This document shows positions 3,996 to 23,156 of a DNA stretch of 24,401 bases, in pieces; positions within the stretch are counted from its first letter, which is position 1; every line of letters begins with the position of its first letter. Made by a program: the position numbers and the translations under genes. The stretch comes from a virus. The notes beneath the pieces are model-generated. The model saw only the letters and a list, made by a program, of their open reading frames with translations. It made no database searches and was not told the origin of the DNA. Location: IMG/VR virus record IMGVR_UViG_3300031223_000041, positions 1 to 24,401 of that record; one strand, 5' to 3'.

Positions 3996-4514
3996 TTACA
4001 ATTTAGCAGGGTCAATCAGTGCCGCTGCAATGAACAACTCATCAAGTTCTGTGGGGGAAAAACCCGCAAGTCCCCCAAGTGTGTTGACCATACTTGCAGA
4101 CCGAACAAAGAAATCAGAATCACTCACAAGGATATTTGCAACTTCCTTTGACTCATCTGGTAACTGGTCTAGGATTGCTGAAAGGTCCACACCTTTCAAA
4201 ACTAAGGCAATTTTTAGCTGTGCTTTTGTGACACGTTCTGGGACAACAACAGGCGGAACAAAACCCAAAGCCGCGTTCAACTGTGCATCCGAAAGAGTCA
4301 AAGTGTGCTCAGTGTCAACGACTGGGTTGCCCTCGGCGTCCGGTTCATTGGCCATGCTGAATGTCAGCGTGTTGGTCTCGGCGTCCCATAGCAAGTCAAT
4401 CGCCTCCATTGGGATCTCGACACCATCCGGCAAAGGTGACAAACGCTCATTGCCTCGGGCGCTTATCAAAACAAAGCCCTGTGGTGTAACTGTTTTAATG
4501 CTTAAATTTTTCAT
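3996..4514 (-). CDS. tail-fibre companion protein
   Basis: This 172-residue protein starts at the ATG overlapping the tail-fibre stop (TAATG). The N-terminal half (1-95) is beta-rich with a segment that looks like a small structural domain. The C-terminal half (about 97-170) reads VTKAQLKIAL..., then a run of small and acidic residues, then FSPTELDELFIAAALI. That resembles the short helical domain encoded just after tail-fibre genes in many phages, where it follows the pattern 'xxxRxQFxxxL...Y.R..P....L....G.t..qld.fw..A'. A structural or assembly role at the fibre is likely. The similarity is by pattern only. Confidence 0.5.
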   Translation of the reverse strand: MKNLSIKTVTPQGFVLISARGNERLSPLPDGVEIPMEAIDLLWDAETNTLTFSMANEPDAEGNPVVDTEHTLTLSDAQLNAALGFVPPVVVPERVTKAQLKIALVLKGVDLSAILDQLPDESKEVANILVSDSDFFVRSASMVNTLGGLAGFSPTELDELFIAAALIDPAKL

Positions 4515-6934
4515 TATGAGTTAAGTTTTTTAAAGTTCGCCCGCACATCGATGTTTGTGGCCCCTGAAGATGTTGCTGTGCGGAGGCGTTGATCATTGGC
4601 AATCTGCGCGGCAGTGGTCGCGGCTGAGATCGAGCCGTCAGCTGCTAATGCAACGCCTGAGTGTAGGCCATTGTGATTGGATCCGTCGCTCCGCTGGATG
4701 ATCGTGCCAGAGGAAGTCTCACCCCCCTGATCGATGATCTGGAGGGAATCGATCACACAGTCCGCCGGGATTAAATCCACCGATGCGGACCCTACAAAAT
4801 CGTTTGAGCTGGCATCGAGGCCGAATCCCCGAATGTGGCCTGCATCTTTTGGTATTAGGTGTTGTGTGCCTGTCGCCGATAAAATCGCGTCGTTGTGATT
4901 TGTGGATGCGTCGTGAAGTTGTAGGCCTATACCTTCGTCCATTGGGAGGTGGAGAGATGCGCCGATGCGTGTTATTGTCATGCTGTCAATATACATCGTG
5001 CCGTTGTTGATTCTTACCAGTGGATTTCCTGGGTTCCCAACTCCCGTCTTCCATTTAAAACTTACTTTTGTCCAAGCGTCCTTAGCAGTGACATCCCCTG
5101 AAAAATTAGTTTGGGGTTTGATTTCCATCGCGAAAGAGTTTGTCACATTGAAATTAGGATCCCCAGTTTTTATGTAAAACCACAACTCGCAAACAAAGGT
5201 GTAAGCCGCATTAGCCCCAGCTGATGAAATTTGAAACCCGTGGTTCCCTGTCGTGACAATCTTTGCACAAAAATCTCCTGCTTGAGCTCCGCCAATACTA
5301 TCAGCATCACCAGCACCATCGTAGTTAGTGTGAGTCCCATTAAAGGCGGACGTATTAAGTAACGCTTGCGCTGTGCTCGCTGTTTCCCCATTTTCAAAAT
5401 CCTCAATTCCTGTGGCTCCCCACTTGTAATCAGGGTTAGAAGCAAGCCAACCGCTGACCCCTTGCGCGTAAATCTCCGCCGCTTGGGTTGCTGTCAATGC
5501 GGTGTTGAAAGCGGACACGCCGCCAAGTTCCCCGGAGATGTAACCTGTCCAAAAAAACAATCCTAAGTCAGATGGGGGAAACGAGAATGTGTACGAAACT
5601 GTTTTCTCCTCGGCTAATACACCATTTTCAAACATGAAAATTTTAGAAGAGGCCGCGTCATAACCGACGATAATTGTTATACCGGCAGCTGGGTCTTTCG
5701 TACCTACCAGAGTCACATCGCCCTCGCTAGAACCAAATCGGAATTGTGTTGTGCCTGAAATCCGAGCGAGCCTTAGATATGGCACGCTCAGGCTGTTCCT
5801 GAAAAAATTATTTGCATTGAAACTAACAGATTCAAAAACCATAGAAAAACTTTTGTCATTGGCACAGCCGGGAAACCTAACACTAACTTTTCCTGAAGTT
5901 CCGTCGAAAGCCACACCGCCCGCAAATGCTTTGTGGTTCAGTTGTCGTGCTGGAATTGCTACTGCTGCTGCTGCACTCGCTGCTGATGCTGCTGCATCGA
6001 TCCCGGTCAGCACCACGTCAGCATTAGTAGCAACCACGTCAGCATTAGTAGCAACCACATCAGCATTAGTCAGCACCACGTCAGCATTAGTAGCAACCAC
6101 GTCAGCATTAGTAGCAACCACGTCCAGCCCTGTCAGCACCACATCAGCATTAGTCAGCACCACGTCAGCCGCTGCTTTAGCCGCATGATGGAGCGCTGAG
6201 AACTCAGTGGAACCATCTCCACCCGCAGCGACACTCACAGGCGAATCCTCCGCTTTATTCGCCCACTCCTCAGCATAGCCAGCTGCACCCAGTATAGCAC
6301 TACCATCGATGATAATCGCTATATCCCCAGATGCCAGATCAGCCACGATACTATCAGAAGTGTGAGCAGTCAGAGCACGAAAAACAGAAGCAGTCGATGA
6401 GACTCTGAAAATGTCGTATTTGCTATAATTAGCAGCTGTTACCCATTCACCACGCCAGTTGCCTAGCTCCATAGTAAGTGTTAATGCGCCGTTCTCATCG
6501 AAGCGAATCAGCTTTCCAATCCTAGCTGCTGCATCTGGTAACACAAGTGCCGTGCCATCGCTCAAGCTAGACTTCAAGCAGCGAGCAAGCTCTTCGTCTG
6601 TCTCCTGCAAGATACGAGTGATCTTGTCCAGCGCCTCGCCAATATCTGCAACGAAGAATTTACCATTCGTGCGCAAGGTAAGAAGCTGGCTTTTCGCTGT
6701 ATTGCGGACGATTGAAATGCGCTCGCCTGCGGTTGCTCCAACCATTGTGACTGTGCCACCAGAAGCATCACCTGCGCCTGCAACCGTGTAATGATTCGTG
6801 AGCGCAAGCACGCCACGAGCATCGCTCACGACGAGCAATTCGCCGTCAATAGAAAACGGGTAAGCAAAGGGTATGCTGTCCGTTGAAGTGGATAATGTTG
6901 CGTCCACTCGTGGTGTTTGTTCGGGAAGGCTCAT
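4514..6934 (-). CDS. tail fibre with LamG-like and carbohydrate-binding-like domains
   Basis: The protein has 806 residues. Residues 1-125 match the virion-anchoring N-terminus of podovirus fibres (FAYPFSIDGELLV..., NHYTV, ERISIVRNT, EALDKI..ILQ). Residues 158-210 (WRGEW...YDIFRV...HTSDS) form a small beta module seen in many tail proteins. Residues 257-312 are eight heptads DVV(L/A)T(N/G)x that probably make a trimeric coil, followed by an alanine-rich stretch. Residues about 331-500 look like a LamG/concanavalin-type domain. Residues about 511-657 look like a carbohydrate-binding module ending in DSMTITRIG. A C-terminal domain of about 150 residues follows. It is the likely receptor-binding protein. 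No enzymatic motif is evident. No Shine-Dalgarno sequence is seen before the ATG. Confidence 0.85.
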   Translation of the reverse strand: MSLPEQTPRVDATLSTSTDSIPFAYPFSIDGELLVVSDARGVLALTNHYTVAGAGDASGGTVTMVGATAGERISIVRNTAKSQLLTLRTNGKFFVADIGEALDKITRILQETDEELARCLKSSLSDGTALVLPDAAARIGKLIRFDENGALTLTMELGNWRGEWVTAANYSKYDIFRVSSTASVFRALTAHTSDSIVADLASGDIAIIIDGSAILGAAGYAEEWANKAEDSPVSVAAGGDGSTEFSALHHAAKAAADVVLTNADVVLTGLDVVATNADVVATNADVVLTNADVVATNADVVATNADVVLTGIDAAASAASAAAAVAIPARQLNHKAFAGGVAFDGTSGKVSVRFPGCANDKSFSMVFESVSFNANNFFRNSLSVPYLRLARISGTTQFRFGSSEGDVTLVGTKDPAAGITIIVGYDAASSKIFMFENGVLAEEKTVSYTFSFPPSDLGLFFWTGYISGELGGVSAFNTALTATQAAEIYAQGVSGWLASNPDYKWGATGIEDFENGETASTAQALLNTSAFNGTHTNYDGAGDADSIGGAQAGDFCAKIVTTGNHGFQISSAGANAAYTFVCELWFYIKTGDPNFNVTNSFAMEIKPQTNFSGDVTAKDAWTKVSFKWKTGVGNPGNPLVRINNGTMYIDSMTITRIGASLHLPMDEGIGLQLHDASTNHNDAILSATGTQHLIPKDAGHIRGFGLDASSNDFVGSASVDLIPADCVIDSLQIIDQGGETSSGTIIQRSDGSNHNGLHSGVALAADGSISAATTAAQIANDQRLRTATSSGATNIDVRANFKKLNS
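5999..6166 (-). repeat. eight 21-bp tandem repeats in the tail fibre gene
   Basis: Eight near-identical 21-bp units encode the heptad DVV(L/A)T(N/G)x at fibre residues 257-312. Units alternate between 'VATNAD' and 'VLTNAD' versions. Copy number could vary by slippage and change shaft length. Confidence 0.9.
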
Positions 6935-6979: not shown

Positions 6980-9900
6980 TTAGGGCATTTGCACGCCCAT
7001 CTCTCTCATACGCCTACGGGTTTCCTTGCGCTCCTCTTCGCGTTGACGCTGTTCACCGCCGCCTGCGTGCCAGTAATACATGGAACCAACGAACGGAACA
7101 GAACGCCATACTTCAGCGTTGCCTATCGACCAATCCGAATCACCAGTGACGATTGAACTGGAATCTCGGTATATTTGCTGAAACCACGGAACAGGGAAAG
7201 ACGTAAGCATTGCAAGCGACAACACTGGATTCTTGTGCCGCTGAAAATCGTAGTAAAGGAATCGGTTGACTCCTAATATCTTGATGGCAGATGCCGCCAA
7301 GGTGTCATCTACTTTCGGCTCTTTGCCAGACAGCGTATCGCGAATGAAATCCACGGTTGCCCCGCCGACAAACCAAAGCATATAGAGCCACATCAGCTTG
7401 CGCATTCCGTCGCGGAATAATTTGTAGTCTCGCTTTTCAACTCCAAGTTTCATTTCGCGAATCCCTTCACGCCGCATAATGTCGAATCTCTTCAACATGA
7501 ATGTCTTTAGCATGTAGAAGATTCGGAGGTTCGGGTGCTTTGCATAGCCCTCTGGCATCTCGCTGTAATCTAGCGGCTGGAAGTCCAGAAGGATATTCCA
7601 ACCAAGCAGAACCACGTCTTCAGATTTTACGTTGTCGATCAAGTCTTGCTTGAGCTGTGCGATCCGCGCTGCGTCACCTCCGAAGTATTCCGTAAGCCTG
7701 CGCTCCTGTGTGTCCGTAAGGCGACCACGTTGCGCTGAGTCGCGATATGCACGTATGCCAGAGTTCACTTGAGTGTTCGCCCCTCCTCGACCAAAGAAGG
7801 CAACTCCCGACTTCTTCATGCCCCAGTCCATAAAGCGAGCCATACCTTTTTTCGCGTCGTCGTAATCTTGGCTGAACGACTCTTGCCCAAAGTCTCGAAC
7901 CATTGACATTTCATCCTTATCGAAAAGGCTCGCGAAGTAACGAAGGTTTCCAAATCCACGACCCGTAAATACCGCTGTCGATATGTCCTCGATCTGAATC
8001 ATTGCCACCTCGAACTTCATCATCGTTGCGATGTAGCCAAGCGAGCGTAACACTTGCAGTCCTTTTTGCATTGCCCCGTTCGTGTGCATTGCTTCCAAGA
8101 TCGTTTGAACTTCGGCCTGCTCTGCGCCAACGAGTTCACCCTTCGCCACCAAGTCAGCGACCACGGATGCGGCTGACTTCTCGACGTTAACCTTCTTTGT
8201 TCCGTTCACGTCTTCGACGATAGCGGACTGTCCGAAAAACTTCTTCTTCTCAACGTCATCAACTACTCGGTTTATGTATCTGTCAACAGCCTCGAATGGC
8301 GTAGAATAGAACTCGTCGAACTGGCTTTGCTCAAGTGTTTCAATTGATCGAGCCTTGAAGTTTGGTGGAATGCCAGAACCTTTGTAAGTGCCAGCTAGAA
8401 TTTGACCGATTATCTTTTCCTTGTCAGCGTCCGTAAGCGTGTGTCCACGAGCAGATGCTTCTAGCTTTGCGGATTCAATCGCCGTGTCGAAGATACCTTT
8501 AACTTCCATGCCGAACTCAGCAAGTAAGCCGTCGCGATCTTGCAACCAGCGAGGCCAGTAATTATCGCGCTTTGGTATCTCGTATCCAGATGCAATTGCG
8601 TATCTACGGATTTCATCCAGCACGATTCGGGTCTGACGGATCGCCTCCGCTAGTCCATCGACCTTATCCATGATGAGCATTGCCTGCTCTTGGTCTCCGT
8701 TCGCTAGGTGCAAGCCCAGCGCTTTACGGTCAGCTTTGTCGAGTTGACGGTATAGGTCACGAGCTGGCTGAACTCGATCACTGTAACGCATCTTGCGCTG
8801 ACTTACGTTCAATCTGTATTCGCGCATTCGGCTGAAGATGCGAACATGCACATTGCGGAGCCGTGAACCCATCGACAAGCCGTTGCGTGCGTAAAGCCAT
8901 CCTAAGAGTCCTCTCTCGCTGAAATCGCCTTTAAGCTGTTCTTGGTTTTTCCGCTGGCGTGCCTGCTCTTCTGCGAAGTATGGCATATCCAGTTTTTCGC
9001 GTTGCTCATTTGACTCGCGCTCTGCGGCTTCCATTCGGACGACTTCAGCGCTGCCACCGTGGTGAGCGTTGAACACTTCATCGGAGACTGTAATCTGCAA
9101 TGTCGGCTCTTGCGGAAGTGATTGTGACATGACAACACCAGCGCCTCCAACAGCTCGTGGCAATACCCCTGCTTCAAGTGACTCTGCAATCTCTCGATAC
9201 TGCTCAAAAGTAAATGACATCGGAGACTCGCCAGACTCACCAGTTTTTACATTCTCAGGGGTGTCCAAATCGAATAGCGACTCTTGGCCTGCCAGCTTAC
9301 CGAACTCAAGCGCTACAGCTCTATTCGCAGCGGGAACCACCACATTCAAGTCAATTAAAATGTCTGCCGAGTCGGGAAACTTGTATAGCCCGATCTTGGA
9401 TGCGTTGCTAAAGATGACCTCACGGTTAGACTCCAAGAACGATTGAACCATTGCTGGGGTGATTGTCCACGAGTTTGTGTTCACGGAGTTGACGGTTATT
9501 ACAAGGCCACCACCTTCGTAGTTTGTTCCGTCAACATTGAGCGTTGCGCCGTCCTCGTCTTTTCGTGGAACCACTTTCAATCGGTCTAGTTGCTCTTGCA
9601 CACGAGACGTAAAGCTCGCGGCCTTTCCTTCGCGGTAAGCCTTAATATCACTCCACCATTCAGAGGTAAGACTTTCGCCTGTAGGTATGCGGTGAAAGAT
9701 TGCAGCCGCCTCACGACCCTTTACCACGTAACCCAGATACCCTGCGTCAATGATTTTGCGTTCAGCTATCAATCCAGCAGCACGGCTGTCGAATGGAGCA
9801 TACTTAGTTTTGCGTTGGCGAACGTCCAAGGCCGCTTTTGATCGGAACTCTTCTGGGTCATTCTCGAAGTCGTAAAGCAATCCCTCTTCGATCTTCATTG

Positions 9901-12900
9901 CGTAAAAGTTGTCTGGAAGATTCGGCTCTTTTTCATAGTCGTCAGTTCCAATGTAAATGCGATCCATGAACAGGTCTGGATACTCCTGCTTTAGCCGCTT
10001 CTCCGTCCCGTTGATACCGCTTCCGTGGAAGTTAGGATCAAGGTAATCAAGGCCAGCGACTCGGCTGAAATGAACCATTGGAACAACTTGAAATGTCGGT
10101 TGCCCCTGCTGCACGGAATCGCGCATTGCGTCGGTGATGGTGACGCGATGGATGGGGGCGGTTACTGCGCCTTGATTGGCCGCTCGATAACCTTCTGACC
10201 ATTTCATGCCACGCTGTCTCATTACAACCATTGCGTCAGACTCAGAATTATAAACATCGTCAACGACTTGATTGCCTTTACTGTCAACAACAGACCAGCC
10301 GCCTACTTGTTCTTCAATAACACCAGCCTCGACCTTCGGCTTGTTCTTTGAATCAAGCTTCTTGAGGTATCCATTTACATCGTTGACCATCATACGGTCG
10401 TAGAACCCCTTCATGCCTTCGCCGCCGACTTTGAGTCCGTTTCCTTCTATCTTTTTGGTTTCCCCTTCAACTGCTGTATCGACGATCTTCTGCGCAAGCT
10501 CCTTGCCTATAGTGTCCGACAGTTCGGATACTGTAGCCTTATGGTTGTAATAGATCGATTGGCGACTCTGACCATTCACCCCAACAGTGTAATTTTCTCC
10601 GTTCTTCTTATATTCGATAGACTCAACCTGCTTACTCAAGTCATACCGACCCGCTTGCGTCTCGCCCGTAGTCCAGCCGATCCATGACTTGCCAGATGCT
10701 ACGGCATCACGCAGAGCACGCTTGAACATTTGGATATGCCAGTCTTTGCGAAATGGCGCATCAGCGATGAGGTCTTGCACGGAAGTTTTTGGTTTCCATG
10801 CCTCCATTCGGCGAATGAATTCTTCGCGGCTTATTTCCCCCGCGTCGTGCGCCCTGTAAATCTCATCGCGTGTTGCTAAGGCTTCTTCAGCGGAAATTTC
10901 CGGTGTGTCGCCACGATAACCGCTCTTCCTTGCCGTCTGATGGCGATCCGATTGCAGCTCCTCGATGAACAGACCGCCATCGCGCTCATTTAATCGCATA
11001 TGTGCGACGTAGTTCGGAATGTCAGCGAAGTGCGAGGATGTGTATTCGCTTGAACGCTTCTGCCTTGATTCCGCAAGCCGCTCATTGTGAGCGATTACAT
11101 CATCCAAAGTAGCAAACTCAGTATATTCGTCCAATGTGGATCTTGCTGTCCCTGCTTCTGGATTGAAATCAACCCGTTGGACTCCGATACCATCCTTGAC
11201 TCCAGCAACCTTGACCCCACTGGACAGGAGGGTTTTAGCTTTCTCAGCATCGAACGTCACAAGACCCTTAGTAACCACTGGCATGGTCAGCACGACCTCG
11301 CGGTAGTTCTCGCCGTTCGGCAGCACGTATCTGCTGTATCGGGTATCCGTCGCGTTGCCAGTTCCGTAGAACACATTCATCGCAACCGTCTCTGCCCAGT
11401 CTTCACGTTGCACGATTTGAGGGTCGAGTGCCTTTAGTTGGTCAAATGCCTCGCGGTCGTTCTCGATTCGTAGCGCTAGCGCATCGTCGGCTTCGCCTTG
11501 CCACTCTTTGCCTAGCTCAATAACACGAGGGACAGCGAATGGGCTATCGTAGTCGATCTTCAAGTTGCCGTTGCCACGAGTCACCTCCTCGAACTTCACA
11601 CGTCCTACATCACGCAGATACGCCATCAAGTCATCCTTAGCGACTTTGCCTTTCGAGTCCTTGTTGTCGTCGAGCCACTGCTCAATCCCGCTCCACTTCA
11701 CCTCGTCGGCTTTGATGCCGTGCTTCGGGTCTAGTAGTCCCTTGATTTGCTGTGCGGTTGCGGCCTTGCCTTGAATCTTTGCGTCCAGCGTGCGTTCAAG
11801 CTGGCTGTAGAATGCAGACTCTTCGGCGTTGCGTGTGACTTGGAATGTTGCGTCAGACATTGGCGCTGCCCTTCCCTCTTCCCATGTCCACGAAGGCATC
11901 AGCCCTGTCTTCTGATCTGCAAAGATAGTGTCTTCGACCTTAGCGGTCTGATTGTGATCTCCGTGCTTGCCAAAGTTTAGCCACGAGTTCTGTCCACGAG
12001 TTTCGCTTGTCATCGCTCCTACGGCTGAACCTTGGAATAAGCGGATGTGTGCCTGCCATGCGTTCTCCTCGCCTCGTGCGCGGAACCCAGAGCCCTCTAA
12101 GCCATGACCGAAAGCATCATGCACTGCGCGGAATAGATCGTTTGCCAAGACCCTACGCTTCTTGCCCTCACTCGATCCGTAAGCCCATTCAATGCCCGTA
12201 TCTAGCATTAGCGGATTGTCGGATACGTCCAACTCTGAATCACCAGAACCGAAGCCTGCTTCAGTAGGATAGACTCCCATCGACTTGTTCGCTCGCAAGT
12301 CACGCATCGCGTTGTATGGCGAGTCTCCGTAACCTTTGTCGTTGGATGGATCAATGAACCAGAAGTCAAAGCCAGCGGCTTCTAGTGCTCGGTATTGATC
12401 CATTGTCTGCTGGATCAAATCGTCATACGCTTCACGGACTATTGGATCGCTTGGCGCGTGCTCCATTTCCTCGTATGCCTGCGCAATCCGTGCTGCTCTA
12501 TCAACGTCAACTTTGACGTATTCAGCCTGCCGCTTTACGTCAATTCCTATACTTCTTGCGTAGTCTTCTGCGACTTTGACGAGGGCTTCGTTTGGCCCTG
12601 TTGCGCCTTCGATTTTTGGAGTGCCTTGAAGCGCCGTAAGCTGCCCACTCGTAGGCCGTCCGCTTCCGTCTCCTCTCGATTGTGATCTATTTGATTGGTC
12701 TGTTTCATAAATATCGTATCCAGCAGCTCGAAGCGCTGCTTCATCTTTCATAGTGAAGTCACTCGGCATTCCAAGCAATTTCCGCATAGCACCTTCCATG
12801 TCTTGCGGAAGGTTTCCGTTTCGACGCATCTTCACCATTAGCTCTGCTTTGTCCCAGATGACCTTGGCGAAGCGACGAACTAGAGCCATGAAGCCTTTTA

Positions 12901-15601
12901 GCTCGTCTGGGAATAGAGCACGCTCTGCGGCCTTGTCATTCATCGCGTAGGTCGATGTGACGTAATCAATCGTGCGACTAGAAAACCATTCGATTAGTCC
13001 GCTGTCAGACTTGTTGTAGCCTTCGCCGCCATCGTTACCTGTCTCGGCTTCCCATTGCTCGCGCCAGCTCATCACCATGCTGCGGACTGCTGGGGATAGC
13101 GTGCCAGCTTCAGCGCCGTCTGCGATAGACAGAAGCTTCAGATACGACTCGGAAACTTCCTCGATAGGAGCCAGCGGTGAAGCTTTATTTGAAATGCGAT
13201 TCACCGCTTTGCCGATCTTTGTGAAGACAGCCTGCGGACTCTTACCAAGCACTGCAATTCGCGCTACGTGATCCGCTGCACTTACCTCGCCACGACTACT
13301 CGAAGTCAACCCAGAGAGCCATGCGATCAGCTCAACGCCTTCTAGGGATGCTGTAGAGGTTCCCGCTACGCTCATGTTGTCGAGAACTTGATCGTCAGTC
13401 ATGCCTTGCGTGATCTTTGGAGCTGAAGATCGCGCAGTAGAGACGGCTTGATCTCGTGTCATTTCACCAATGTCAACCATCGCTCGAAGGCTTTGATTCT
13501 TTACGACATCAGCAGATTGTCCACCGTGCAGGCCGATTAAATAATCAAGTGTGGACTTGGTAGCACCCGCTAGTTCATCAAGCTTAGTTTGTTGCCACTC
13601 CCATGCGGCATTATTCGCGGCATCTTTCGTGTCAAATTCACCGATAGGCTCACTCGTGATAGGGTCAATTAAAAGGTGTTTGCCACCCTTCTCGGATTGA
13701 GCAGGCGCTTCGACTCGACCTGCTGGGATTCTTCCACCATCAGAGGAAGCTGGAAGGTCAACCATGACTGGAACAACGTATGTTCCTTTTGGCGCTTTAG
13801 CTTCGACTGCTTCATTGTGTTCGCGAACTGCTGCAAGCATAGGAGTTGCTTGCTGAAGGGCTTTAACCTGCTCTGCTGTCGTCGCATTCTCAAGGTCGAT
13901 AGCAGTGCTACCAGAGAACTCGTCAAACACGTAGGTCGAACCTTTGTGCGTGAATACAACTTGATCCGTATCGTGTCGGTTGCCTGCTACAATCTCTGTG
14001 TCGGGGATTGCTTCGAGCATACTGTCCTTGTAGGTGTCGTATGCTGCCTTGTCGCCGTTTGCCGCCTTTAGAATGGTGTCGCCTATGCCAGCGCTTTCAC
14101 CCATTTGTCGAAGCTCTTTATCGCTACGAACTCTGCGCAACGATCCGCTCATTTCCTTAAAGCCGAAAGGAGTTCCGTCTTTAGCCATGAAATCGTGTTG
14201 AAGCTCAGCTTTGACATCTTGGTTGCCCTTGAATGTCACGGCTCCACCCATAACAAATCCCGCGATACCTCCGTAGAAGGCATCTACCCCACGAGCTTTA
14301 ACAAACTCTTCAAGGGTCATGTCAAAGTCATCGTCAATAAACATATTCCGAAACTCCTCAGCCGCTCCCTGTAGAGGTTCTTCAACGGCTTCTTCTAAGC
14401 CAGACATTCCAGCGGCCTTTAATACTGCCTTTAAATTCTCAACTTTCCCCATGTAAGCAACAGTCTCGCGAACACTCTTGTTTTTAAACATAGAGAAAAC
14501 TTTATCTGCCGCTCGATTCACACCTAGCATACGTTCAATCGCAATTTGAACTGCCGTAAGAAATGCTCGGGAACCGTAGTTCTTTTTCGGATCGAAGACT
14601 TCGCCCTTTGCCTCTACCATTTCTTTTTCAGCTTGCCTTACATACTCATACATTGTTGCCGCTCCGAGCGGAGACGTAGCTGGATTCATCAATGAAATAA
14701 TCATTGGCAATGACTCGGAAATCACAGTAGTTGCTTTGCCTACGATAGACCTTCTGACGTTTTCACCGATGTATTCTAAGTCGCCATATTCTTTATCTAT
14801 TTCGACTATCCAATCGCCAATCTTGCTGGCCTCTTCCCCATACTCTTTAACCCAATTCCCCGTTCGTGCAGTGAAATCAAGCGACCCTCCTACAATGCCT
14901 TCCTTACTTCGCGCTACGATCTCCTCAACCTTAGCAGTAAGCTTGCCTCGAAACTCTTCCTCGACGGCGTTCTGGGACGCTGACACATCTTCAAAAGTAG
15001 ATACAGACATGTCTCCACCGAGCAAAGATTTTACGATGCCAGTTGTTGCCTCTTCGCTTGTAGCATTCCGTAATTTCTCACGGTAATCCATGAGTTCGAT
15101 CCGATCTTCGTCGGTCATTTCTAGGCTGTAGGCAAGTGACTCTGCGCCCCTTTCAATGAAGTCTCCAACAACTTGGCTAGTGTCACCAATGGCGTGTTCT
15201 GTTCCAGCGGCAAGTTGACGGGTTCCCCTGCCTAAACCTTCGGCAGCTAGCGAAGGGACATCCCATGCGTATCGCGCTTTGTCTAAGACGGGAGTTTTGC
15301 TTTTAATAGGCCGCTTCCCTTGCATCTCAGCATACCTCTTCCCGATCTCTGCATAAACTTTGCTTAGATCAGAACTATCGAAGTTTTGCCTTGCGAAGCC
15401 GTCAAAGTTGTCCATCACGAATTGGTAACGATTAACATTTCCGAACGCACGCTTAGCAAGCCACATAGAGGCGTGCCGCTTGTCCATCTCGGAATCGCGT
15501 GTCTCTGGGTCTTGAAGATCATAAAACTCCCTACCCTTCTGAGAGAGTGTATTGAATCGGTTATCACCAGAGGTGAAGTAGTCTTGAAGTTGGTCAGCCA
15601 T
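6980..15601 (-). CDS. giant polyvalent-type protein in the internal virion protein D position
   Basis: It has 2873 residues, twice the size of T7 gp16 (1318), but sits in the same slot between internal virion proteins and the fibre. Several conserved blocks of phage 'large polyvalent proteins' are visible. There is a HDxFGH motif at 1161-1166, followed by GEENAW (1177-1182), H1185 and RGQNSW (1202-1207). An EELQSD block lies at 1547-1552, with WTTGE at 1643-1647 and GGEGMKGFYD at 1726-1735. Then comes an HFS...LDPxFHGSG block (1844-1862) and a DLNVVVP-like segment near 2083. A long C-terminal region with NYWPRW (2347-2352) resembles LPD38. A basic tail ends the protein. I see no lytic transglycosylase motif at the N-terminus. 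It is probably ejected with DNA and carries effector activities. The start is 2 bases after the upstream stop. Confidence 0.75.
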   Translation of the reverse strand: MADQLQDYFTSGDNRFNTLSQKGREFYDLQDPETRDSEMDKRHASMWLAKRAFGNVNRYQFVMDNFDGFARQNFDSSDLSKVYAEIGKRYAEMQGKRPIKSKTPVLDKARYAWDVPSLAAEGLGRGTRQLAAGTEHAIGDTSQVVGDFIERGAESLAYSLEMTDEDRIELMDYREKLRNATSEEATTGIVKSLLGGDMSVSTFEDVSASQNAVEEEFRGKLTAKVEEIVARSKEGIVGGSLDFTARTGNWVKEYGEEASKIGDWIVEIDKEYGDLEYIGENVRRSIVGKATTVISESLPMIISLMNPATSPLGAATMYEYVRQAEKEMVEAKGEVFDPKKNYGSRAFLTAVQIAIERMLGVNRAADKVFSMFKNKSVRETVAYMGKVENLKAVLKAAGMSGLEEAVEEPLQGAAEEFRNMFIDDDFDMTLEEFVKARGVDAFYGGIAGFVMGGAVTFKGNQDVKAELQHDFMAKDGTPFGFKEMSGSLRRVRSDKELRQMGESAGIGDTILKAANGDKAAYDTYKDSMLEAIPDTEIVAGNRHDTDQVVFTHKGSTYVFDEFSGSTAIDLENATTAEQVKALQQATPMLAAVREHNEAVEAKAPKGTYVVPVMVDLPASSDGGRIPAGRVEAPAQSEKGGKHLLIDPITSEPIGEFDTKDAANNAAWEWQQTKLDELAGATKSTLDYLIGLHGGQSADVVKNQSLRAMVDIGEMTRDQAVSTARSSAPKITQGMTDDQVLDNMSVAGTSTASLEGVELIAWLSGLTSSSRGEVSAADHVARIAVLGKSPQAVFTKIGKAVNRISNKASPLAPIEEVSESYLKLLSIADGAEAGTLSPAVRSMVMSWREQWEAETGNDGGEGYNKSDSGLIEWFSSRTIDYVTSTYAMNDKAAERALFPDELKGFMALVRRFAKVIWDKAELMVKMRRNGNLPQDMEGAMRKLLGMPSDFTMKDEAALRAAGYDIYETDQSNRSQSRGDGSGRPTSGQLTALQGTPKIEGATGPNEALVKVAEDYARSIGIDVKRQAEYVKVDVDRAARIAQAYEEMEHAPSDPIVREAYDDLIQQTMDQYRALEAAGFDFWFIDPSNDKGYGDSPYNAMRDLRANKSMGVYPTEAGFGSGDSELDVSDNPLMLDTGIEWAYGSSEGKKRRVLANDLFRAVHDAFGHGLEGSGFRARGEENAWQAHIRLFQGSAVGAMTSETRGQNSWLNFGKHGDHNQTAKVEDTIFADQKTGLMPSWTWEEGRAAPMSDATFQVTRNAEESAFYSQLERTLDAKIQGKAATAQQIKGLLDPKHGIKADEVKWSGIEQWLDDNKDSKGKVAKDDLMAYLRDVGRVKFEEVTRGNGNLKIDYDSPFAVPRVIELGKEWQGEADDALALRIENDREAFDQLKALDPQIVQREDWAETVAMNVFYGTGNATDTRYSRYVLPNGENYREVVLTMPVVTKGLVTFDAEKAKTLLSSGVKVAGVKDGIGVQRVDFNPEAGTARSTLDEYTEFATLDDVIAHNERLAESRQKRSSEYTSSHFADIPNYVAHMRLNERDGGLFIEELQSDRHQTARKSGYRGDTPEISAEEALATRDEIYRAHDAGEISREEFIRRMEAWKPKTSVQDLIADAPFRKDWHIQMFKRALRDAVASGKSWIGWTTGETQAGRYDLSKQVESIEYKKNGENYTVGVNGQSRQSIYYNHKATVSELSDTIGKELAQKIVDTAVEGETKKIEGNGLKVGGEGMKGFYDRMMVNDVNGYLKKLDSKNKPKVEAGVIEEQVGGWSVVDSKGNQVVDDVYNSESDAMVVMRQRGMKWSEGYRAANQGAVTAPIHRVTITDAMRDSVQQGQPTFQVVPMVHFSRVAGLDYLDPNFHGSGINGTEKRLKQEYPDLFMDRIYIGTDDYEKEPNLPDNFYAMKIEEGLLYDFENDPEEFRSKAALDVRQRKTKYAPFDSRAAGLIAERKIIDAGYLGYVVKGREAAAIFHRIPTGESLTSEWWSDIKAYREGKAASFTSRVQEQLDRLKVVPRKDEDGATLNVDGTNYEGGGLVITVNSVNTNSWTITPAMVQSFLESNREVIFSNASKIGLYKFPDSADILIDLNVVVPAANRAVALEFGKLAGQESLFDLDTPENVKTGESGESPMSFTFEQYREIAESLEAGVLPRAVGGAGVVMSQSLPQEPTLQITVSDEVFNAHHGGSAEVVRMEAAERESNEQREKLDMPYFAEEQARQRKNQEQLKGDFSERGLLGWLYARNGLSMGSRLRNVHVRIFSRMREYRLNVSQRKMRYSDRVQPARDLYRQLDKADRKALGLHLANGDQEQAMLIMDKVDGLAEAIRQTRIVLDEIRRYAIASGYEIPKRDNYWPRWLQDRDGLLAEFGMEVKGIFDTAIESAKLEASARGHTLTDADKEKIIGQILAGTYKGSGIPPNFKARSIETLEQSQFDEFYSTPFEAVDRYINRVVDDVEKKKFFGQSAIVEDVNGTKKVNVEKSAASVVADLVAKGELVGAEQAEVQTILEAMHTNGAMQKGLQVLRSLGYIATMMKFEVAMIQIEDISTAVFTGRGFGNLRYFASLFDKDEMSMVRDFGQESFSQDYDDAKKGMARFMDWGMKKSGVAFFGRGGANTQVNSGIRAYRDSAQRGRLTDTQERRLTEYFGGDAARIAQLKQDLIDNVKSEDVVLLGWNILLDFQPLDYSEMPEGYAKHPNLRIFYMLKTFMLKRFDIMRREGIREMKLGVEKRDYKLFRDGMRKLMWLYMLWFVGGATVDFIRDTLSGKEPKVDDTLAASAIKILGVNRFLYYDFQRHKNPVLSLAMLTSFPVPWFQQIYRDSSSIVTGDSDWSIGNAEVWRSVPFVGSMYYWHAGGGEQRQREEERKETRRRMREMGVQMP

Positions 15602-17062: not shown

Positions 17063-17521
17063 CTAGAGTTTCATTCTTGCTAATTGATTGGCTCCACCGA
17101 GAAGCGTAGTTCCCACTGCAAGCGGTGCAGCGCGACGAATTGATTTCGATTGGTAACGATTCACTGCGCCCTGCTGCATGAGCGCCTGCGCTCTGGACTC
17201 CCCAGCATAGGCGGTATCCAGTGCGGCCAGTTCAAGGTCGGCTGCTGTCTGACTCATTACGGATAGCGGTGTGCCAGTCGATGTGATCCCAGATTTAGCG
17301 TATACTGCCCTCTGGCGCTTCTTGAAGCGGTCGTTCTCCTTGCGCTGGCGGCTTACCCTCTCAGAAGTTTCTAGGCGCGTCTGCTCGGCCTGAGACTCTG
17401 CAACTTGAGCGTTATATTTGGACATATCGCTCTGCTGCTGCATAGATTGATACGTCCCGTAAGCCGAAACTGCTGTTCCGACTACGGTAAGGATTGGAGC
17501 TAAAACTGCTGCGAATGCCAT
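17063..17521 (-). CDS. internal virion protein B-like (gp14-like) protein
   Basis: This 152-residue protein opens with a hydrophobic, glycine-rich segment (1-24, AVLAPILTVVGTAVSAYGTY). A long charged helix follows (about 30-75, YNAQVAESQAEQTRLE...RQRKEN), then the motif AKSGITSTGTPLSVM (about 75-90) and further helix. This pattern is typical of podovirus gp14-type internal core proteins, which are ejected into the cell envelope. AAGG about 8 bases before the ATG is a plausible ribosome site. Confidence 0.75.
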   Translation of the reverse strand: MAFAAVLAPILTVVGTAVSAYGTYQSMQQQSDMSKYNAQVAESQAEQTRLETSERVSRQRKENDRFKKRQRAVYAKSGITSTGTPLSVMSQTAADLELAALDTAYAGESRAQALMQQGAVNRYQSKSIRRAAPLAVGTTLLGGANQLARMKL

Positions 17522-17525
17522 ACGA

Positions 17526-17939
17526 TTAACCTTTTAAAAGAATTTCCACGCCTTTAGACGCAATTTCAAAACCATGCAGCTTCATTAGTTTAGAGATAGA
17601 TGGAATTGCGGACATCGAAACCATTACGCCGTAACCAAGGTTTTCGCCGTGGTCAGTAAGGTATCGAATACAATGGTTCAGTCCGTCGAACTTTTCCATA
17701 GAGCGAGCAGCGGGATTTACAATCATCCACGACATAAATGAAACTGGAACGCTATTGTCGAGATACAGCCAAGCTGCTGCACAGAGAACGCCATCCTCGT
17801 TAACTGCAATGCAACCTGTCTTTGGTAGCGCTGCATGTGGAATCGACATTGCTTCGTGAGCTATCCACCACGCTTCAATGGTTGCATGGTTGCATTCTTC
17901 GTATGGTTTAAGTTGCATCATATTATTCGCCCGTAACAT
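17526..17939 (-). CDS. GNAT-like small protein in the gp13 position
   Basis: The protein has 137 residues from ATG 17939, or 131 from the ATG at 17921 that follows the upstream stop directly. Both are possible. The first overlaps the nozzle gene by 17 bases. The alternation of strands and helices (CIAVNEDGVLCAAAWLYL, FMSWMIVNPAAR, GYGVMVSMSA, KLMKLHGFEI) resembles a GNAT acetyltransferase fold, including a late strand-helix-strand. GNAT-type proteins occur at this place in many T7-like phages. The acetyl-CoA loop (Q/RxxGxG/A) is not evident, so it may be structural rather than catalytic. Confidence 0.5.
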   Translation of the reverse strand: MLRANNMMQLKPYEECNHATIEAWWIAHEAMSIPHAALPKTGCIAVNEDGVLCAAAWLYLDNSVPVSFMSWMIVNPAARSMEKFDGLNHCIRYLTDHGENLGYGVMVSMSAIPSISKLMKLHGFEIASKGVEILLKG

Positions 17940-20900
17940 CGTAGTGAATTATCAATCCAGCAAGAGTGAATGGCAGTGGCGCGTCGTGCTTTAAGATAAG
18001 AATCGGGTCACGCTCGTGTCCTGTGTTCATTATCAACTCGACCTCACCATTGAATAGCTGAGGTGGTAATGACTGGTCTTGATTGCCCCCTCGAAACGTC
18101 ACGTCTCGATACTTTATAGCCCCATCAGCGCTCTTCGATCCGTCGCTATACTTCAGTCCTATCGTGTCGATCAAGTCAGCATAGACGGAACTCATAACCT
18201 TCGTGTAGCCAGTTGACGAACCGACTACGCTATCAGCATTAATCTGAAGCGGTTGAACGAATACTTCATATTTCAAGCCGACAAAGACGGTCGAGAATAA
18301 ACTATCGAAAACGATTGCCCCATTCGTCACGGTTAAACCTTGAACGTGATAGCCATCAGCCAGCACTTCTACGGCCTCTCCCTCAAGATGCCATAGCCCT
18401 CGAATCGTCAAGTCAGAGTTTTGATCGTAGTATTTAGAGCAATCAACGAAGCGCTTTTTAGAATCCGATTCGGGAACTGTCGTAGAAGTTTTAAGTTTTG
18501 ATAGGAAGTCTTCTAAGCTATTGAAATTAAAGCCTCCCGTTTGATCCGACAAGAACTGGTATCCAGCGTTACTGACGGTTCCAAAATGGAATACAGCGTC
18601 AATCGAGTTAAGTGCGCTCAATGCTTGAGATTGCGTAGCTCCCCTTTCGTGGCTCGATTCGTCAGTAAACATAAGCACTTCGTGTGCGTATCGTTCGTTC
18701 CATGAGTATGAATTACAAGCCTGCACGATTGATCCGTAGCCATTCTCTGGGCCATCTCCACCACCACTTGTGCTAATTCCCTCTAAAGCAATCTTAAATG
18801 AGGTATAACTCGTGAAGTCGAGGTTCGGCTCGAACACTGGACTGTCATCTTCATCTTTAAATCCGATCAAAGCAAATTGAACGTCTCGATAAGCTGAACC
18901 GTAAACAGATGCTATCTGGTCAGCTAACTCAAGAATGTCGGCAATAATCCCACTCATGCTTGCAGTCGTATCAACGCAGAATGCTATTTGAGCGTCCTGC
19001 TTAATGCTGCGGTCATCGAGCGATAACGAAGGATTGTAGTCTCCAGACATTCGTTCGAGGAAGCGGCGCGTGACTCCAGATATAGTGCGATTGGTTGCAA
19101 CCCATACCTCGTCATCTTGCGATCCGTAGATAACTTCTACGCCCTCAAAGTCTCCGTCTGTATCATGCGGATTCCATGCGTAGACATTTTGATCTCGCTC
19201 GTATGTAAACGACAAAAGCTTACCGTCTCCAGTGCAGCACCATACTATGGGGTCTGGCGTTGGCTGATAAGCGATAGACCGCAATCCACCTGCTGTTAAA
19301 TGATCGCTGAACTCTTGCATGTCGAGCGCGTGAAACTTGTCTCTCTCAATACTGAAAGACAGCGCACGGAGGCTCTGAGAGCTTCCACGCTGCACATACA
19401 TCACAACATCATCAACCGTCTCTGGACGGATTGCTTGAGAGCCTTTGTTCTCCTGTCTACGGGCGACGATGTTTGTAGGAGAGATTACAGAGTTCAAATC
19501 AGTTCCCGCTAGCGTCCACTCACTCCCAGAAGTGCCGATCATGAGCTTATCTTGGTCAACCATCCAGAGAATGTCATTTCGCTCTTTAGAATCCAGTTCA
19601 ATGAATAGTGCGCTTGTGTCGTCAGTTCCAAGTTGAAAGCTGTCGAAGAGGTCTGTTTCCGATTTCCAGATGCCTTGAGGGTATGCGCTCGTGTTGGCAA
19701 ACCAAATGGCTTTCTCAAATAAACACATTGCTCGTGGGTATCCTTGTAATCTGCTCCATGCGCCTTCAGACCAGTCTTCGGTTATGTCAGTAGATTCAAG
19801 CTCCCTTACGATGTCCACCGTAACCTCTGTAGCGCTAGTGAATCCCGTAATCTTGACGGCTCCTTCGATCAATACTGCTTCAGACCGTAGGGTTGCCTTA
19901 GCGTCTCCCACGCTACCGCCCATGTGATAGTATCGAGATTCATCATCTTGCGTAAATCTTACGTTGAAATTCTTACCGTCGCCATCTGTAGAATTATTAG
20001 AAGTATATGAACCCACCTCAGTCCACTCGGAAGCCGTATAAGTCGCAAGGTTCGGAGACTGAACTTGAGCCTTATAGACGATGACGGTTCCGCTCCATTT
20101 GCCAGATGTCTCTAGTGTCAGATTGCCTATTGCCTTAATAGCGTTTGTCACTCCAGAAGCGGTGACTTCAGAAGACTTGCGAAAGTGGCGAAGAACCCAA
20201 TACGATCCTACATGAGCAGAGCTAAATGGAGTATGCCCACCCGCAGTCATGGTTGCCCCTGTGCCAGTCTTTGCGTCAACTTCAAGCAGTTGCCCCGCTT
20301 CGACATTCGGATCAAGCGCAGGAGGAAAGGCGAACTCGTATTCGCTGATCGTCCAGCTTGTGAGCCCAAATCGTATCATTTGCTGGACTGGATGCGCCCC
20401 ATCGCAGAACCACATCACGTCATTCTTCTGTGCATAGTCTAAATTGTATAAGTCGGCTTCAGTGTAGATCGAAGCAATCTCGTAAACCTTTTCAGCCGTC
20501 CCTCCAGTTGCCTCGGCTGTCCACGCGCTACCATCAATGTCATTTCCATCGCGGTCTTGAATCTCGAATGTATCGGACGTAGAACTGGCAACCTTTACCC
20601 AGCGTTCGTTCATCTCTGGCATCTCGACAAATCCCTGCAAGTAAATCTCGTTTCCGTCACTGTAACCGTGACCCGTTGCAGTAGCTACGATTGGATTTGC
20701 AGCGCTCATACTGCCGATGCCAGTAGGAGCTTCACGGACTTGTTGACCGTTCACATGGAAGCGGACATACTCATGCCCCATCTCAAGCAACATCGTGTCA
20801 GATTTGCTGAAGCGGAAGCGAACAGGACGACAAATCTTATCGTCATATTTCGTTGGTGCTACGAGTTCAAACCCTTTGCGCTTGCTTACAGCTCCGTGAG

Positions 20901-21027
20901 GCCAGCTTATCACATTCCTTGCCTGCCTGCACGCGCTTGAATGCTTTTCGTGATCGACTCGACCGTAAACCTTGCGTGACCATTCACCAGCGTTTAGGTG
21001 ATAAATATCTTTCCGTGATTTAGGCAT
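17923..21027 (-). CDS. tail tubular protein B (nozzle) homologue with inserted von Willebrand factor A domain
   Basis: It has 1034 residues compared with 794 in T7 gp12. The N-terminal part (1-660) follows the podovirus nozzle pattern: GEWS at 13-16, CRQARNVISWPHGAVSKRKGFELV, then a series of beta domains, ending ERM at 658-660. The C-terminal part from FVDCSKYYD (starting 860) continues the conserved core with GLWHLEGEAVEVLADG and PLP near the end. Between them, about 675-855, lies a vWA domain. DTTAS at 686-690 supplies the DxTxS MIDAS, GGDGPEN includes Asp758 in the loop, and FTDESSHE gives Asp789. GGAG lies 9 bases before the ATG, inside the end of the upstream gene, which overlaps by 8 bases. 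Confidence 0.85.
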   Translation of the reverse strand: MPKSRKDIYHLNAGEWSRKVYGRVDHEKHSSACRQARNVISWPHGAVSKRKGFELVAPTKYDDKICRPVRFRFSKSDTMLLEMGHEYVRFHVNGQQVREAPTGIGSMSAANPIVATATGHGYSDGNEIYLQGFVEMPEMNERWVKVASSTSDTFEIQDRDGNDIDGSAWTAEATGGTAEKVYEIASIYTEADLYNLDYAQKNDVMWFCDGAHPVQQMIRFGLTSWTISEYEFAFPPALDPNVEAGQLLEVDAKTGTGATMTAGGHTPFSSAHVGSYWVLRHFRKSSEVTASGVTNAIKAIGNLTLETSGKWSGTVIVYKAQVQSPNLATYTASEWTEVGSYTSNNSTDGDGKNFNVRFTQDDESRYYHMGGSVGDAKATLRSEAVLIEGAVKITGFTSATEVTVDIVRELESTDITEDWSEGAWSRLQGYPRAMCLFEKAIWFANTSAYPQGIWKSETDLFDSFQLGTDDTSALFIELDSKERNDILWMVDQDKLMIGTSGSEWTLAGTDLNSVISPTNIVARRQENKGSQAIRPETVDDVVMYVQRGSSQSLRALSFSIERDKFHALDMQEFSDHLTAGGLRSIAYQPTPDPIVWCCTGDGKLLSFTYERDQNVYAWNPHDTDGDFEGVEVIYGSQDDEVWVATNRTISGVTRRFLERMSGDYNPSLSLDDRSIKQDAQIAFCVDTTASMSGIIADILELADQIASVYGSAYRDVQFALIGFKDEDDSPVFEPNLDFTSYTSFKIALEGISTSGGGDGPENGYGSIVQACNSYSWNERYAHEVLMFTDESSHERGATQSQALSALNSIDAVFHFGTVSNAGYQFLSDQTGGFNFNSLEDFLSKLKTSTTVPESDSKKRFVDCSKYYDQNSDLTIRGLWHLEGEAVEVLADGYHVQGLTVTNGAIVFDSLFSTVFVGLKYEVFVQPLQINADSVVGSSTGYTKVMSSVYADLIDTIGLKYSDGSKSADGAIKYRDVTFRGGNQDQSLPPQLFNGEVELIMNTGHERDPILILKHDAPLPFTLAGLIIHYDVTGE

Positions 21028-21664
21028 CGTAGCTTACTCCAGTATTTCCGTTCGTTGTTTCGTTCGTGCTCTTGCGTCTTGTCGAACCTGTCCACCTTGA
21101 AGAGCGCTGAACCTTGTCGCGTGAGTTGTATCTACGGCTACTCTGAGCGGCCTTAGTGCTGGACTCTGAGGCTTTACGCTCGGACTGCACTAGAAGAGAC
21201 TCAGCGCGTTCCTTATCGCCCCTGCGAGCATTCACGATCTTTGATGCCAGTAGTAATGCGAAGGCTTCGATAAACTCGGCTTCGTAGAGTGAGGTGTCAG
21301 TCTCGTATCGAATATAAACGATCTTCGCCTGCCCCTCGTCGGTAAGCAGGTTGCGACCTTCGATCTCATAAAAGTCGTCGTTGACCATGACTTCATCACC
21401 GTTGAAGCGAACCATCTCAACGTAGTCAGTTGGCAGGATAAACGAATGAGCGTATTCAAAGTCTGGAGACGCTGCATTCATTGCAAGACCTTTGCGGCCT
21501 TGAGCAAAGCGGGGGCGAACTCGGCCTAGCATCTCGCGGAGGGCTTGTTCGTAATGCAGCAGGACGGTTTCAGCCATCAGCTCGTCGGTTGTGTCCACAT
21601 TGCCATTGAGAGACTGCTCTCGTGCGTGGCTAAGTGCTAGGTTGGCTATCTCGGTCTTGTTCAT
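21020..21664 (-). CDS. tail tubular protein A (adaptor/gatekeeper) homologue
   Basis: This 214-residue protein has the T7 gp11 pattern. The N-terminal helix is NKTEIANLALSHAREQ, then a helix with YEQALREMLGRVRPRFAQGRKGLA, the loop YAHSFILPTDYVEMVRF, beta strands ending IVYIRYETD, and a helix EFIEAFALLLASKIV. The C-terminal 50 residues are Ser/Arg-rich and unlike T7. It should form the ring that joins portal to nozzle. No Shine-Dalgarno sequence is seen. A minus-strand terminator (21684-21714) lies directly upstream of its start, so its expression needs read-through or a promoter in the 76-base gap. Confidence 0.8.
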   Translation of the reverse strand: MNKTEIANLALSHAREQSLNGNVDTTDELMAETVLLHYEQALREMLGRVRPRFAQGRKGLAMNAASPDFEYAHSFILPTDYVEMVRFNGDEVMVNDDFYEIEGRNLLTDEGQAKIVYIRYETDTSLYEAEFIEAFALLLASKIVNARRGDKERAESLLVQSERKASESSTKAAQSSRRYNSRDKVQRSSRWTGSTRRKSTNETTNGNTGVSYDA

Positions 21665-22247: not shown

Positions 22248-23156
22248 TTAGGCGGTTACGAGAGAGTTGATAGCCACGACAGCCTTCTCTTCGTTACGGT
22301 AAGCGCCCATTCGAGCGGTTGTGCGGATTTGTAATGCGTGACTGCGCTCTGGAAGCACATCAGCGTATGCGCGACGTTCGCCGTCTGCAAAGCGGATGTG
22401 ATCCTTAGCCCATGCCAAGTTGCGAACGATGTCGCCACCTTGACCACCACCACCAGCCACTTGAGTCAAGCCTGTGTGGGAGACCCACTGGAAGCCCATC
22501 CAAGTCATGCCTTCCATGCTGCCTGCTGTGATTGCGCCAGCGATGACGTAATCAGAGCTTTTCACTTCTTCAGCGGTCAGCAGGAGGTTGTCTTCTGCTT
22601 CTGGATCGAAGGCAAAGCAGCGAGCTGCACGCTTTAGATCGTTGTCCTTGAAGAAGCGGTTAGCGCGGATGACTTGCTTGAGCGACAAGCCTGCATCAGT
22701 TGCTCCATCAGCGTAGTCGGAATCGACAACCTGAGTGAGCGCTTGAGTGCTCGTGCCTTCAGCACCAACGGTTGCGAGTCCTTCGACCGCTTCCTTGATC
22801 GTGCGGTCAACCTCGCGATTGTAGGCATCGACCTGTTGAGTCATGATGTCGGAATCTGGAAGAGCAATGTCTCCAAGGTTCTTTGCGTCCCACTCGTCAA
22901 GGACTTCAGCGAGGTCAACCTCGTGAGCCAAGAGCCAGCGGAAGAAGGTTTGACGCTCCGAGATGCGAGTCTTCTGAGCACGGCCTGTCTTGCGCTGCAT
23001 ATCCAGAATCTCGGACTGGTTGTAGCGCTTCTTGTAGCCATTTAGATCGACCTTCTTGACGAGTCCGTAGAAGTCAGAAACGCGACGTGCGATTCGTGCC
23101 TCCCATGTGGTCGAGAAATCTTCTCGGAAGTGTGCGGGTAAAGCTTTGTAAGCCAT
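22248..23156 (-). CDS. major capsid protein (Phage_capsid_2-like)
   Basis: This 302-residue protein has features of the HK97-fold family often called Phage_capsid_2. These include an N-terminal FSTTWEARIARRVSDF and repeated basic segments (RKTGRAQKTRISERQTFFRW). The block AKNLGDIALPDSD...AYNREVDRTIKEAVEGLATVG matches the 'D..dpr..ya.a.a.A.gR..D..ii.AL.G.a' signature. C-terminal beta strands (RADGE-like, RTTARMGAYR) resemble the P domain. It has one of the best ribosome sites in the window (AGGAG at 23167-23171, 10 bases before the ATG). The 245-base gap upstream contains a terminator and an operator-like palindrome. Confidence 0.8.
   Translation of the reverse strand: MAYKALPAHFREDFSTTWEARIARRVSDFYGLVKKVDLNGYKKRYNQSEILDMQRKTGRAQKTRISERQTFFRWLLAHEVDLAEVLDEWDAKNLGDIALPDSDIMTQQVDAYNREVDRTIKEAVEGLATVGAEGTSTQALTQVVDSDYADGATDAGLSLKQVIRANRFFKDNDLKRAARCFAFDPEAEDNLLLTAEEVKSSDYVIAGAITAGSMEGMTWMGFQWVSHTGLTQVAGGGGQGGDIVRNLAWAKDHIRFADGERRAYADVLPERSHALQIRTTARMGAYRNEEKAVVAINSLVTA

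Follow-up and report, generated by a model that had tools for sequence, protein, structure and literature searches.

The tail nozzles of podophages are usually seen as conduits and gates, and receptor recognition is ascribed to fibres and spikes. Can a nozzle also carry an adhesion domain of its own? This question is raised by a gene in the virus record IMGVR_UViG_3300031223_000041 (IMG/VR), of which positions 1 to 24,401 were analysed (the window, 24,401 nucleotides in length). The gene encodes a 1034-residue nozzle protein that is interrupted by a von Willebrand factor A (vWA) domain with an integrin-like metal ion-dependent adhesion site (MIDAS). Computational analysis yielded the identity of the nozzle, the fold, motifs and boundaries of the vWA domain, its restriction to one clade, its fast divergence and the variation of its MIDAS loop, and on these grounds a role for the domain in receptor binding is proposed.

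17923..21027, minus strand: tail nozzle (tail tubular protein B, T7 gp12-like) with inserted vWA domain, 1034 residues (phrog_376, 8ck1_A)
19048..21027, minus strand: nozzle residues 1–660, N-terminal part and beta-propeller with the ERM block at its end (phmmer match to 8ck1_A; AlphaFold2 strands up to 652–660)
18451..19047, minus strand: whole insertion, residues 661–859, flexible linkers included (missing from 56 of 79 aligned relatives)
18472..19002, minus strand: vWA (integrin I-like) fold, residues 676–852 (Pfam VWA_4; integrin beta-3 3ze2_D)
17923..18450, minus strand: nozzle residues 860–1034 and stop codon, FVD strand and C-terminal platform domain (phmmer match of 874–1027 to 8ck1_A 673–822)

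A vWA domain interrupts the tail nozzle protein

Judged by its sequence, the product of the 17923–21027 reading frame is a podophage nozzle of the T7 gp12 / phrog_376 type. In a PHROG profile search it matches phrog_376 (‘tail protein’) with E=1.2e-160, and phmmer aligns it to the Carin-1 ‘Tail Nozzle’ (8ck1_A) with E=1e-63 over residues 13–99, 182–661 and 874–1027, skipping residues 100–181 and 662–873. An AlphaFold2 model of the full chain (1–1034), built on a 38-sequence nozzle alignment and with a mean predicted local distance difference test score (pLDDT) of 82.7, superimposes on 8ck1_A with Z=38.9 over 659 residues and on T7 gp12 with a Z of ∼31. The gene adjoins that of the adaptor within a tail module of the podovirus type, and by analogy with its relatives the protein would assemble as a hexamer that forms the ejection conduit. 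The reading frame is intact in five further contigs (L002–L006), which rules out that the vWA nozzle is a frameshift or chimera of assembly.

The initial annotation had described a nozzle homologue interrupted by about 180 residues of vWA domain between an ERM block (658–660) and an FVD block (860–862), with MIDAS residues DTTAS (686–690) and Asp789. All four elements lie at these positions, on a minus-strand reading frame whose strand had been left out; the insertion is real, but the interrupted length is ∼199 residues (661–859). That this interruption is a genuine vWA domain is confirmed by several lines of evidence. The Pfam family PF25106 (VWA_4) matches residues 681–796 with E=1.2e-10 and 41.7 bits (curated cut-off 27), and the corresponding regions of L003, L005 and L006 are likewise called VWA_4 or VWA by Pfam (for L005, VWA at 41.5 bits against a cut-off of 23.8). 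In the AlphaFold2 model, the region is an alternation of strands (E) and helices (H) in the order E679–686, H689–712, E716–723, E735–738, H741–749, H763–773, E781–788, H799–808, E811–817, H824–830 and H838–848, that is, an alpha/beta Rossmann-like fold, which is joined to the nozzle by flexible linkers (663–676 and 848–857, pLDDT <50). The best structural match of residues 676–852 is integrin beta-3 (3ze2_D; Z=20.2, 2.4 Å over 176 residues, 18% identity), followed at lower scores by integrin alpha-M I domains (Z ∼18.6), and integrin relatives are recovered again (Z=19) on folding the insert alone. Structure prediction thus returned a vWA fold, and not the missing fold that would have refuted the initial annotation.

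A complete MIDAS motif

18958..18972, minus strand: MIDAS loop 1, D686-T-T688-A-S690 (DxTxS; from the sequence)
18745..18756, minus strand: MIDAS loop 2, D758-G-P760-E761 (profile match to integrin beta-3 D217-A-P-E220)
18661..18663, minus strand: D789 of MIDAS loop 3 (FTDE; invariant, from the sequence)

The MIDAS set is complete in the window, with the DxTxS motif, the second-loop glutamate (E761) and the third-loop aspartate (D789). Across four members (window, L006, L003 and L005), D686, S690, E761 and D789 do not vary, and residue 688 is Thr or Ser. The aspartates that follow DxSxS in integrin beta I-like domains and form the site adjacent to MIDAS (ADMIDAS) are not present in the window, where G693 and I694 occupy what we take to be the positions of the ADMIDAS residues of integrin beta-3.

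The insertion is confined to one clade

The distribution of the domain was followed in 79 aligned nozzles, namely those that cover both flanks of the junction. More than two-thirds of them (56/79) have no insert, with only 35–38 residues between the E of ERM and the GL of GLxHLEG. Four nozzles (window, L003, L005 and L006) carry the vWA domain, which sits before the FxD strand, and the remaining 19 have longer spans that are not vWA, mostly 65–160 extra beta-rich or E1_FCCH-like residues after the FxD strand, with short extensions of ∼15 residues in L011 and L012. The window, G001 and G003, which belong to one species level, make up the vWA clade along with L003/L004 (71% identical) and L005 (60–62%). 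Every close homologue (≥60% identity) of sufficient length has the domain, and homologues at ∼35% identity and below do not. The vWA domain is a separate domain, and the many relatives with no insert rule out that it belongs to the normal nozzle fold. The clean insertion envisaged in the initial annotation is borne out by these counts, and among the 79 nozzles compared the insertion is confined to the window's clade of uncultured short-tailed phages.

Further viral scans for vWA nozzles recovered only this clade, and tblastn of the insert against deposited phages gave three weak matches only (E 1e-3 to 0.7). Two scans of cellular genomes returned no relative or donor of the domain, the pattern-based scan being one that detects close relatives only. 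In BFVD, the top match to the vWA domain (34% identity) is A0A6J5QP07, a ‘VWFA domain containing protein’ of 1007 residues from an uncultured Caudovirales phage, which is also the top match to the whole nozzle model (24% identity, E=4e-81). As it heads both lists, this protein probably has the same architecture as the window nozzle, such that the architecture is probably in the databases already under a record named for its vWA domain and not called a nozzle. Adhesin or carbohydrate-binding labels also occur on the nozzle-like BFVD entry A0A6J5NFE1 and on residues 280–310 of the L040 nozzle (GLEYA and CBM_5_12; the CBM_5_12 match does not reach the curated cut-off of its family), which hints that the gain of binding modules by nozzles may be more widespread.

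Position on the tail and divergence from relatives

In T7 gp12, the fibre dock lies on the outer surface between the end of the propeller and the platform, whereas the tip is formed by propeller blade 3, which is extended there (PMC6702177). In the element order of the AlphaFold2 model, the vWA domain is preceded by the strands that lead up to the junction (640–660) and followed by the C-terminal beta domain (from 862 on); it thus links the end of the propeller, at its last strand, with the platform and occupies the place in the chain of the T7 gp12 fibre dock. From this chain order we infer that the domain lies laterally, on the outer flank of the tail, and the tail-tip location of the initial annotation is not supported by the same comparison.

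21020..21664, minus strand: tail adaptor (tail tubular protein A-like; phrog_394, E=6.4e-29)
22248–23156: capsid protein (PF19821)
4514..6934, minus strand: separate tail fibre, 806 residues, N-terminal anchor conserved, middle and distal parts variable (phrog_1640 on residues 1–113, E=5.1e-20)

Between the window and L005, identity is 72% in the nozzle body (1–660), 61% in its C-terminal part, 67% in the adaptor, 82% in the capsid protein and 63–70% in the fibre anchor (1–113), whereas it drops to 31% in the vWA domain, the same value as in the distal fibre. The two variable parts do not change together. In G001, the nozzle is identical to that of the window and the middle section of the fibre (∼residues 345–475) is replaced, whereas in G003 the fibre is as in the window and the MIDAS loop differs, which indicates that fibre and vWA domain vary independently. 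As far as sequences can tell, this pattern of divergence is that expected of a host-facing binding domain, and it supports an adhesin. The fibre gene also holds 21/63-bp tandem repeats at 5510–5907 and 6006–6169.

Variation at the MIDAS loop

Over its whole 24.4 kb, the window departs from the near-identical genome G003 at five substituted positions and in the length of one repeat (a 12-bp gap). Of these substitutions, four (18941, 18952, 18962 and 18963) are packed into 23 bp that encode part of the MIDAS loop and of helix 1.

18940..18963, minus strand: codons 689–696 with four of the five substitutions (A689L, S692R, A696D; genome comparison, matching L006:7065–7088)

A uniform model gives a chance of ∼1.5e-8 for four of five sites within 23 bp, or ∼1e-5 if codons are counted as events. 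All four substitutions are non-synonymous and leave the metal ligands unaltered, and residues 689, 692 and 696 lie within ∼60° of one another on an ideal helix 1, that is, on one face. When the motifs are put in register, residues 689 and 692 are the counterparts of Tyr122 and Lys125 of integrin beta-3, which hydrogen-bond to Arg-Gly-Asp (RGD) peptides in simulations (PMC8301328). Like the divergence from L005, the cluster supports an adhesin.

How the cluster arose was considered in several ways. A diversity-generating retroelement in cis is not supported, as G003 (38.5 kb, terminally redundant, with a 127-bp terminal direct repeat that suggests completeness) lacks both of its components: a reverse transcriptase (PF00078) gave no match at E≤10 in G001–G005, with control genomes matched, and no template repeat for the variable stretch was found in G003, G001 or the window. 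Recombination, selection and an assembly effect remain. That the cluster is a short recombination tract or a mixed-strain assembly effect, and not targeted or selected diversification, is a serious possibility that we rate somewhat below even. It accords with the absence of the retroelement components from G003 and with differences elsewhere between the window and G001, which lie in clustered tracts and suggest recombination in the population. Less readily accommodated are the exclusively non-synonymous changes on one helix face with the metal ligands spared, and a tract would still need to be fixed at exactly that spot; moreover, one allele has residues found in relatives (R692, D/E696). A flank-anchored pattern scan for further alleles of the stretch returned only the two known contigs. 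It is improbable, by contrast, that the population rapidly retunes the ligand-contact face of a nozzle MIDAS adhesin via a targeted process, be it a trans-acting retroelement, the conversion of short tracts or diversifying selection of great strength. Known hypermutation systems target C-type-lectin folds, unlike the integrin-like vWA domain.

A putative second receptor-binding module

Taken together, we slightly favour a reading in which the vWA domain is a MIDAS-dependent second receptor-binding module on the nozzle, besides the tail fibre. In a hexameric T7 gp12-like nozzle, six copies would project laterally from the tail, close to the bases of the fibres. Residues D686, T688, S690, E761 and D789 would hold a divalent metal as in integrin I domains, a protein (or glycan) on the cell surface would complete its coordination with an acidic group, and residues of loop 1 and helix 1 around the metal would determine specificity. 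The domain could then serve as a short-range receptor-binding site, and perhaps couple irreversible attachment to nozzle opening. The second receptor-binding site suggested in the initial annotation is thereby upheld in part, in that the domain diverges like a host-facing one, and receptor binding itself stays a proposal.

Several points weigh against this reading. Confidence in the vWA model is moderate, with pLDDT mostly 60–87 in the full chain and a mean of 64 for the insert modelled alone on a four-sequence alignment. Divalent-metal and ligand binding would follow from motifs, in which D758 is missing in L003 and the equivalent of P760 in L005. The MIDAS-focused variation is seen in one pair of metagenome contigs, and L003 and L004, only 3 bases apart over 7.5 kb, have no difference within the vWA domain; both points also speak for the recombination or assembly explanation. 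Finally, the fibre-dock position also suits an assembly role.

The last point leads to the main rival, in which the vWA domain is a replacement fibre dock, an assembly domain whose MIDAS or other face holds the fibre base. The domain does occupy the chain place of the T7 gp12 dock (PMC6702177), and vWA domains commonly bind protein partners; however, the fibre anchor is conserved in L005 whereas the vWA domain diverges, the MIDAS loop is altered with a constant fibre in G003 and the fibre with a constant nozzle in G001, and most relatives have no domain at all at this junction. We therefore regard a dock as unlikely. A structural or stabilizing module without a host ligand, with metal-stabilized packing of neighbours or contact to adaptor or capsid, has a parallel in the beta-rich or FCCH-like modules near the junction of other nozzles, but it would lead one to expect a domain about as conserved as the nozzle body, and the domain instead diverges like the distal fibre while keeping its key MIDAS residues, which makes such a module rather improbable.

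Neighbouring genes and repeats

17063–17521: internal virion protein (phrog_418)

A small gene (17526–17939) overlaps the 3′ end of the nozzle gene; the genes at the same position are annotated as acetyltransferase in Pelagibacter phage Lederberg and as GNAT-like in epsilon15. Downstream of the internal virion genes, a 2873-residue protein (6980–15601) matches no Pfam family and, over a short stretch, a single PHROG of unknown function. A 15-bp tandem array of 14 copies (1280–1493) lies within a plus-strand reading frame (1197–1727) and encodes pentapeptide-like repeats such as ADLSYANLS; G003 is 12 bp longer than the window across the stretch that matches this array.

Comparison with known nozzles and vWA domains

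Nozzles and vWA domains are both already known. Phages have vWA proteins too, and the extracellular contractile injection systems derived from phages carry the domain in their tail-fibre proteins (PMC12923769). Of a vWA domain within a podophage nozzle, no description was found in the open-access literature. If the proposed role is true, a MIDAS adhesion domain puts receptor binding on the very component whose opening is required, and whether nozzle contact triggers ejection could be approached through a metal-switchable handle. The insertion also marks the propeller–platform junction as a place of domain gain in nozzles.

With integrin beta I-like and alpha I domains, the window domain shares the fold, the DxTxS loop, the DxPE loop (as in beta-3) and the third-loop aspartate, whereas it differs in its low sequence identity, in the missing ADMIDAS aspartates and in its location in a virion protein. 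This likeness is one of fold, and no special kinship to metazoan integrins is claimed. Among nozzles, the nearest in the phage collection are the tail tubular proteins B of Pelagibacter phages (Lederberg, HTVC010P), which are ∼35% identical and have the same neighbouring genes, but lack the insertion and pass from RRYVE to FLD in ∼15 residues. The nozzles of the Cobetia phage Carin-1 (8ck1) and of epsilon15 (gp12), in the phrog_376 family, are homologous to the window protein along its whole body, with the same order of adaptor, acetyltransferase-like and internal virion genes; they have no vWA domain, and carry an insert of their own of ∼80–100 residues after the FxD strand. T7 gp12 (6r21, 7ey9), at 11% identity, has the overall fold of the window nozzle and likewise a domain at the propeller–platform junction, which in T7 is the fibre dock and in the window an alpha/beta vWA domain.
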